Assembly (NCBI GenBank): GCA_028709085.1 | Contig: JAQVXQ010000003.1 | Coordinates: forward strand, 1-57,402 | Direction: 5' to 3' | DNA: 57,402 nucleotides | From: Salinivirgaceae bacterium | Lineage (GTDB): Bacteria > Bacteroidota > Bacteroidia > Bacteroidales > Salinivirgaceae | Shown: positions 28,302 to 28,927 of the stretch, piece by piece | How the letters are laid out: each line of letters opens with the position of its first letter | Numbering within the stretch: position 1 is the first letter of the stretch | Program-made: the position numbers and the translations under genes | The notes under the pieces: model-generated | Databases searched by the model: none | What the model was told of the DNA's origin: nothing | What the model saw: only the letters and a program-made list of their open reading frames with translations

Positions 28302-28335
28302 TTTGTAACGTTTGAGGAAATTATTCGTATATTTG
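28302..28335 (+). promoter_or_regulatory. Promoter of the candidate small RNA
   Basis: TATATTTG (28328-28335) matches TAnnTTTG exactly. TTTG elements occur at 28302-28305 (22-base spacing) and 28311-28314 (13-base spacing), neither at the 19 bases seen in the best promoters of this window. Start of transcription is predicted near 28342. Confidence 0.55.
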
Positions 28336-28341
28336 CCTAGG

Positions 28342-28432
28342 TTTTAAGTATCAACAGATTTATTTCTGTTGACATGGTTTTAAGGGTTAATAACGGTACG
28401 AGAGGAAATAACATTTCCTCTCGTTACTTTTT
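28342..28432 (+). ncRNA. Candidate small RNA, about 91 nt, two hairpins and terminator
   Basis: Directly after a promoter box the sequence forms two perfect hairpins. The first has an 8-bp stem (28351-28358 with 28365-28372, TCAACAGA/TCTGTTGA) and a TTTATT loop. The second has a 12-bp stem (28398-28409 with 28413-28424, ACGAGAGGAAAT and complement), a 3-base loop and a five-T run (28428-28432), a typical terminator. GGTTTTAAG occurs twice, before and after the first hairpin (28340-28348, 28376-28384), and a 25-base unpaired linker joins the two. There is no convincing open reading frame, and the next gene starts 600 bases later, so it is not a leader of mce. Alternatively the second hairpin is only the terminator of the preceding TPR gene. 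I do not recognise it as 6S, tmRNA, SRP or RNase P RNA. Confidence 0.5.
28398..28432 (+). terminator. Rho-independent terminator after the small RNA
   Basis: A 12-bp perfect stem with AAC loop is followed, after TAC, by five T residues. It would also stop read-through from the TPR gene that ends at 28289. Confidence 0.8.
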
Positions 28433-28927
28433 CATGGAAGTTTGAGTTTTCATCTTCTCCATCAAATCCATACAGATGTTTACTAAGGCTCTCAAAATAC
28501 ATTATTCTACGCACCAAAATAAAATTCAACCATCATACTTTCGAAAATAATGATTCCTTAGTGTCACCCACTCTTTTAAATGCTTCGTGAACAGTTCCTT
28601 CAAAAACACGTTGATTAAATTACGACCACAAAAAAGAGAATCACAAAAATTCGCCTACCTAATTCTTTTCCAAACAAAAATATCATCGCTATTTAATATT
28701 ATATTCAAAAACGCATTTATGCAATTCAAATAGGATTTAACTTCACATACACAAAACAATGATCGTGTGTGCTTCGGCTTTTCAATTTCCTTTTTTTACG
28801 TTCATCGACAACCGATAAATACACATTGTTCTCAATTAAAGGCAAACTAATTCACAAAAGGAAATACAACATTGTTTAATAACATGTTTTTTTCAATAAA
28901 AATGGCGGTAAACCCAAATGAGTTGGC
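28433..28927. other. Long AT-rich intergenic region before mce
   Basis: No reading frame of convincing length, tRNA or further terminator is seen in these ~495 bases. A short ACACA/TGTGT pairing near 28750 is too weak to call. A minus-strand TATTTTTG near 28673 matches the promoter box but has nothing recognisable behind it. Confidence 0.4.

Follow-up and report, generated by a model that had tools for sequence, protein, structure and literature searches.

In Bacteroidota, the role of Shine-Dalgarno sequences is taken over by an A-rich translation-enhancer region. This phylum offers few trans-acting sRNAs for which targets are known, and the literature that we found covers gut Bacteroides and fish-pathogenic Flavobacterium. 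FopS of B. thetaiotaomicron (Rfam RF04319) represses translation and binds RbpB (PMC11697453). Blocked initiation was experimentally shown for FopS and proposed for GibS (PMC11697453, PMC7366714), and initiation in Bacteroidota is reportedly favoured by an adenine-rich stretch at -11 to -15 (PMC7366714). In Flavobacterium, some target mRNAs of the sRNA Rfp18 reach full abundance only when it is present (PMC9723704). Our literature search returned no papers on sRNAs of Salinivirga or Marinilabiliales, nor any containing GGUUUUAAGGG.

Here we describe a locus in a stretch of 57,402 nt from a Salinivirgaceae bacterium (the whole stretch is referred to as the window). With a probability of about 0.82, this locus encodes a free-standing, trans-acting antisense sRNA of ~90 nt that represses translation of a small envelope-protein regulon without Hfq. 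A sequence-only reading had proposed a free-standing small RNA with a consensus promoter box, two perfect hairpins, a T-run after the second of them, and the motif GGTTTTAAG on both sides of the first; all these elements are in place (Table 1). The box TATATTTG is a Bacteroidota -7 promoter box, and the promoter conforms to the consensus TTTG / TAnnTTTG published for this phylum (PMC7366714). The start of the transcript was placed 6-8 nt past the -7 box, and its end was deduced from the T-run. As claimed in that reading, there is no reading frame (no ORF of at least 60 aa crosses the locus), and the distance to the next gene, given there as about 600 bases, is ~610 nt from the unit. Neither tRNA nor tmRNA was found, and a search of the window against Rfam at the gathering threshold gave no match. 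Relaxed Rfam searches returned, apart from FopS, just scattered sub-threshold matches; those to MIR1886 and SpF39 correspond to a plain hairpin and are probably due to chance. A 111-nt stretch folds at -33.4 kcal/mol, compared to -18.3 +/- 3.0 kcal/mol for shuffled sequences (z = -5), and none of the 200 shuffles equalled it.

Table 1. Features of the sRNA locus and its surroundings (positions in the window).
Feature	Position	Strand	Basis or remark
Stop of TPR-type gene (left neighbour)	28289		
Candidate -33 element, TTTG	28302-28305	+	Spacer of 22 nt to the -7 box; kept in homologues, spacer 19-22 nt
Another TTTG	28311-28314		Too near the -7 box for a -33 role
-7 box, TATATTTG	28328-28335	+	Sequence; TAnnTTTG also in homologues
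First GGTTTTAAG copy	28340-28348	+	Further copy of the seed core, specific to the lineage
Predicted sRNA transcript, ~90 nt	28341-28432	+	Start and end inferred; homologues by covariance model
5' hairpin (hairpin 1), 8 bp, loop 6	28351-28372	+	Folding; covarying
Single-stranded seed, CATGGTTTTAAGGGTTAATAAC	28373-28394	+	19 of its nt (ATGGTTTTAAGGGTTAATA) do not vary across the 14 genomes
Second GGTTTTAAG copy	28376-28384		Core of the invariant seed
Hairpin 2, 12 bp, loop 3	28398-28424		CTTTTT directly after
Intrinsic terminator (hairpin 2 and T-run)	28398-28432	+	Covarying 12-bp stem
Start of next gene	29041		

Homologues of the sRNA occur in 13 further genomes belonging to three families, i.e., the window's own family (f1, NCBI Salinivirgaceae), f19, and f90 with one genome; the sample per family is small, and many genomes in it were assembled from metagenomes. 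Four homologues were found within the window's family by DNA search. An exact scan of named genomes for CATGGTTTTAAGGGTTAAT yielded 11 stretches, mostly from records named Salinivirgaceae, Marinilabiliales or Bacteroidetes, and family f19 is represented by seven of the named records and one further genome (G796). The covariance-model scores are 94-114 bits for the f1 relatives and 48-59 bits for the f19 members. The f90 genome (G346) was recognised through seed, promoter and hairpins; the other weak covariance-model matches in the order and phylum mostly lacked the seed and were dismissed as chance hairpins. Two exact seed matches (L066 and L072) were rejected, both being without hairpins. The sRNA was not found in G001, nor in the large genus g164 of f19, and viral contigs contained no exact seed match. 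The window's own genome (G000) carries a single copy, and each f19 genome with the sRNA has one exact seed match, a second one in G793 being a target site.

The promoter box, the 5' hairpin, the invariant ATGGTTTTAAGGGTTAATA and the terminator with its T-run are common to all 14 genomes. The covariance-model search suggested in the sequence-only reading recovered homologues, with changes on both sides in both helices: 7 of 14 pairs are affected, and none of 500 shuffles was as high. In the 14-sequence alignment, 90% of the cells are paired, a share that 0 of 500 shuffles reached, versus 44-63% if the partner is slid. The conservation of GGTTTTAAG, another check named there, can be answered for its second copy, which lies in the invariant seed and is more than a linker: the seed sits between both hairpins and is the complement of mRNA sites. 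The idea of two equivalent single-stranded segments stood in the window's genus only, as the first copy is identical in G002, degenerate in G003-G005 and absent in f19; the general feature is therefore the second copy. In f19, the promoter is located directly before the hairpin, so that the RNA would be ~60-70 nt long there, without the 5' segment bearing the first GGTTTTAAG.

It is an evenly balanced question whether this RNA belongs to the FopS family through common ancestry, having arisen within one gene lineage by loss of 6 seed nt and gain of a 5' hairpin; this question concerns its ancestry rather than its mechanism. The Rfam FopS model aligns end to end, with seeds and terminators in register, but its scores of 17.8 bits (window 28366-28433) and 19.5 bits (L069) are far under the curated cut-off of 56. 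Both RNAs appear to have the seed core CATGGT...TTTAAGG(G)TTAATAA. The alignment of the Rfam FopS consensus (R1' seed) with the window's seed (TCATGGT------TTTAAGGGTTAATAA / TCATGGTATTAGATTTAA-GGTTAATAA) contains 21 identities with one 6-nt and one 1-nt gap, the window's seed missing 6 nt and having one G added. With this consensus as query, an equally good alignment was obtained in 1 of 20000 mononucleotide shuffles, 4 of 20000 dinucleotide shuffles and none of 114758 window 23-mers; with the 70% consensus of the FopS paper, however, shuffled sequences did as well far more often (413 and 1007 of 20000), which makes the alignment weak. The distribution of the two RNAs appears complementary, as no FopS was found in the f1 genomes or in the searched f19 and f90 genomes with the sRNA. 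Against common descent, FopS loci of the order have the promoter directly before a single-stranded seed that is followed by the terminator hairpin alone, whereas a covarying 5' hairpin precedes the seed here; furthermore, FopS is a multicopy paralogous family (14 copies in B. thetaiotaomicron), while the window's sRNA is present once. Convergence is plausible as well, since each of the seeds reflects a motif, TTAACC(C)TTAAA, that is much alike in both sets of targets. In the order as a whole, FopS exceeds the cut-off in 75 of 393 genomes from many families, with at most 12 matches per genome.

Target sites were located by pattern search. The seed complement CCTTAAAACC (often GTTATTAACCCTTAAAACC) lies 7-8 nt ahead of the ATG of ~37 genuine genes in 13 sRNA-bearing genomes; such counts are inflated by related sequences, several targets being paralogues of one 115-aa family. 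In the f1 genomes, exact AACCCTTAAAACC occurs 21 times (five of these are the sRNA genes), compared to three times for the reversed control, and 10 of the 16 sites outside the sRNA genes end 6-8 nt ahead of an ORF's ATG. The f19 and f90 genomes form an independent set, in which 8 of 21 such sites end 7-8 nt ahead of ATG. The pattern CCTTAAAACC-N4-10-ATG was found 82 times in the 13 genomes, versus 39 for reversed controls; the spacings from 4 to 10 are represented by 5, 5, 9, 21, 28, 9 and 5 matches, with a sharp peak at 7-8 that is absent in relatives without the RNA (60% versus 34% at this spacing, p = 2.7e-4). These relatives show a mild preference for spacing 7 as well (31 of 147), as would be expected if A-rich sequence is favoured there anyway. 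Real ORFs follow ~48 of 84 distinct sites in the sRNA-bearing genomes (37 of them at spacing 7-8) but only 5 of 34 sites in control genomes without the RNA. In addition, the bases upstream of the site core are complementary to the remaining seed. A conserved seed and target sites above controls, as characteristic of a trans-acting base-pairing sRNA, are therefore both present.

The predicted targets are mostly exported or outer-membrane proteins: an unnamed secreted family of 115-118 aa, OMP_b-brl_2, OMP_b-brl_3/plug receptors, OEP (TolC type), HlyD, MacB/FtsX, LolA-like proteins, flavodoxins, DUF116, DUF4097, a Por-secretion protein and DUF5916. A hydrophobic N-terminal segment is found in 37 of 46 targets, compared to 41 of 94 background ORFs (p = 5e-5). 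The 115-118-aa family occurs in many genomes and has no Pfam match and several paralogues per genome, often with a target site (e.g., L032:1227-1574 on the minus strand, L116, L124, L130, L145 and others). Targets are few in the window's own genus. Its own genome has two clear sites: a near-perfect duplex of 28 nt is predicted with the leader of a 115-aa gene (G000:C89:1583-1611, -37.5 kcal/mol), and a second duplex with an OMP_b-brl_2 gene (G000:C166, -20.1 kcal/mol), while eight gene starts of the window, used as controls, gave -6.7 to -10.5 kcal/mol. In G002, no convincing target site was found; its sole CCTTAAAACC-N-ATG match is not a gene start.

Very probably, the sRNA thus switches off or tunes the translation of dozens of envelope-protein genes. 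It would be transcribed from a primary-sigma-type promoter, capped by the 5' hairpin and ended by the intrinsic terminator. The single-stranded linker would serve as seed and pair with GUUAUUAACCCUUAAAACC-type sites, the last base of which lies 7-8 nt before AUG, in a small set of mRNAs, most of which encode exported or outer-membrane proteins. The AAAA of the site would cover about -10 to -14, adjoining or on the A-rich translation-enhancer region, so that the pairing is expected to block ribosome loading and to repress translation. The action would be Hfq-independent; Hfq was not found in any of the 11 sRNA-bearing genomes searched.

The same pairing could instead activate or stabilise the targets, or work mainly via 3'UTR sites, but we regard this as improbable. 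Rfp18 provides a precedent, and exact sites do occur 3-16 nt past stop codons as well, mostly ahead of terminators, in f19 genomes; nevertheless, the ribosome-binding stretch predominates as site position, and it is there that GibS and FopS exert repression (PMC7366714, PMC11697453). Examples of AACCCTTAAAACC past stop codons, mostly just ahead of a terminator, are L124:1501, L107(-):1501, L103:1501, L111:1501 and L120(-):287; in L124, the site is located between two paralogous target genes. In L104:1470-1530 (G785:C1:7821), AACCCTTAAAACC occupies the loop of a hairpin with 11 bp that lies 39 nt past a stop codon, possibly as a sponge.

It is very unlikely that the RNA works by way of a short peptide (MVLRVN...) or serves as a protein decoy. 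The invariant stretch does hold an ATG-initiated frame (ATG GTT TTA AGG GTT AAT) that is open in all homologues, but not a single synonymous change occurs across 14 divergent genomes, which implies that the constraint acts on nucleotides, and insertions of 1-2 nt in G002 and L075 disturb the frame downstream. As a decoy, the RNA would have to present the mRNA sites in their own sense, whereas the invariant stretch is their complement.

The neighbours of the unit, named by reading their sequences, vary. In the window, it follows a TPR-type gene; in G002, it is flanked by superoxide-dismutase-like and aspartate-carbamoyltransferase-like genes, in G003-G005 a different long gene precedes it, in most f19 genomes it lies between aspartokinase-like and MurF-like genes, and in G346 the setting is yet another one. 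Although the terminator lies ~110 nt past the TPR stop codon and probably ends the TPR mRNA too, the view that it is merely the terminator of this gene next to a chance promoter-like box can practically be discarded, as the whole unit, with promoter box and seed conserved, is kept beside other genes and is often convergent to its neighbour. The sequence-only reading had named retention of hairpin 2 alone after the TPR gene as evidence against an independent RNA; the opposite was found. At the sequence level, the unit has its own promoter, its own terminator and independence of its neighbours, as a trans-acting base-pairing sRNA should, and this conservation, the covarying hairpin and terminator, and the seed with its mRNA sites support the free-standing sRNA proposed there.

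Comparative genomics alone has thus revealed, in further families, a conserved seed whose matching regulon extends over several genomes, with a link to FopS. This provides a testable system for Hfq-free sRNA action on mRNAs without Shine-Dalgarno sequences and for joint change of seed and targets. Tentatively, and at somewhat less than even odds, the sRNA occupies the niche of FopS in families that lack it, its seed and mRNA sites (CCTTAAAACC-N7-8-ATG) having been re-tuned together; the additional 3'UTR sites, including the one in a hairpin loop, may be sponges or dual-end sites, and the sRNA and its regulon would have evolved jointly across families, in a phylum that has no Hfq.

Among the described systems, Rfp18 of F. 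psychrophilum (PMC9723704) resembles the window's sRNA by description, being a conserved Bacteroidota sRNA that pairs with several predicted secreted-protein targets via one region; however, this region is in its third stem-loop, and the targets are metalloproteases and an adhesin. GibS of B. thetaiotaomicron (PMC7366714) is likewise trans-encoded and targets translation initiation regions through a long AT-rich seed, but it is ~145 nt long and differs in its two seeds (R1 and R2), its stationary-phase promoter motif and its architecture. FopS (PMC11697453) is similar in its small size (65-70 nt), primary-sigma promoter and the order of a conserved single-stranded seed and a terminator, and its targets are chiefly outer-membrane proteins, bound at the translation initiation region, as here judging from complementarity; its target sites reach the start codon, whereas those of the window's sRNA end 7-8 nt before it. 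The window's sRNA probably works like FopS of Bacteroides and may be its divergent relative.
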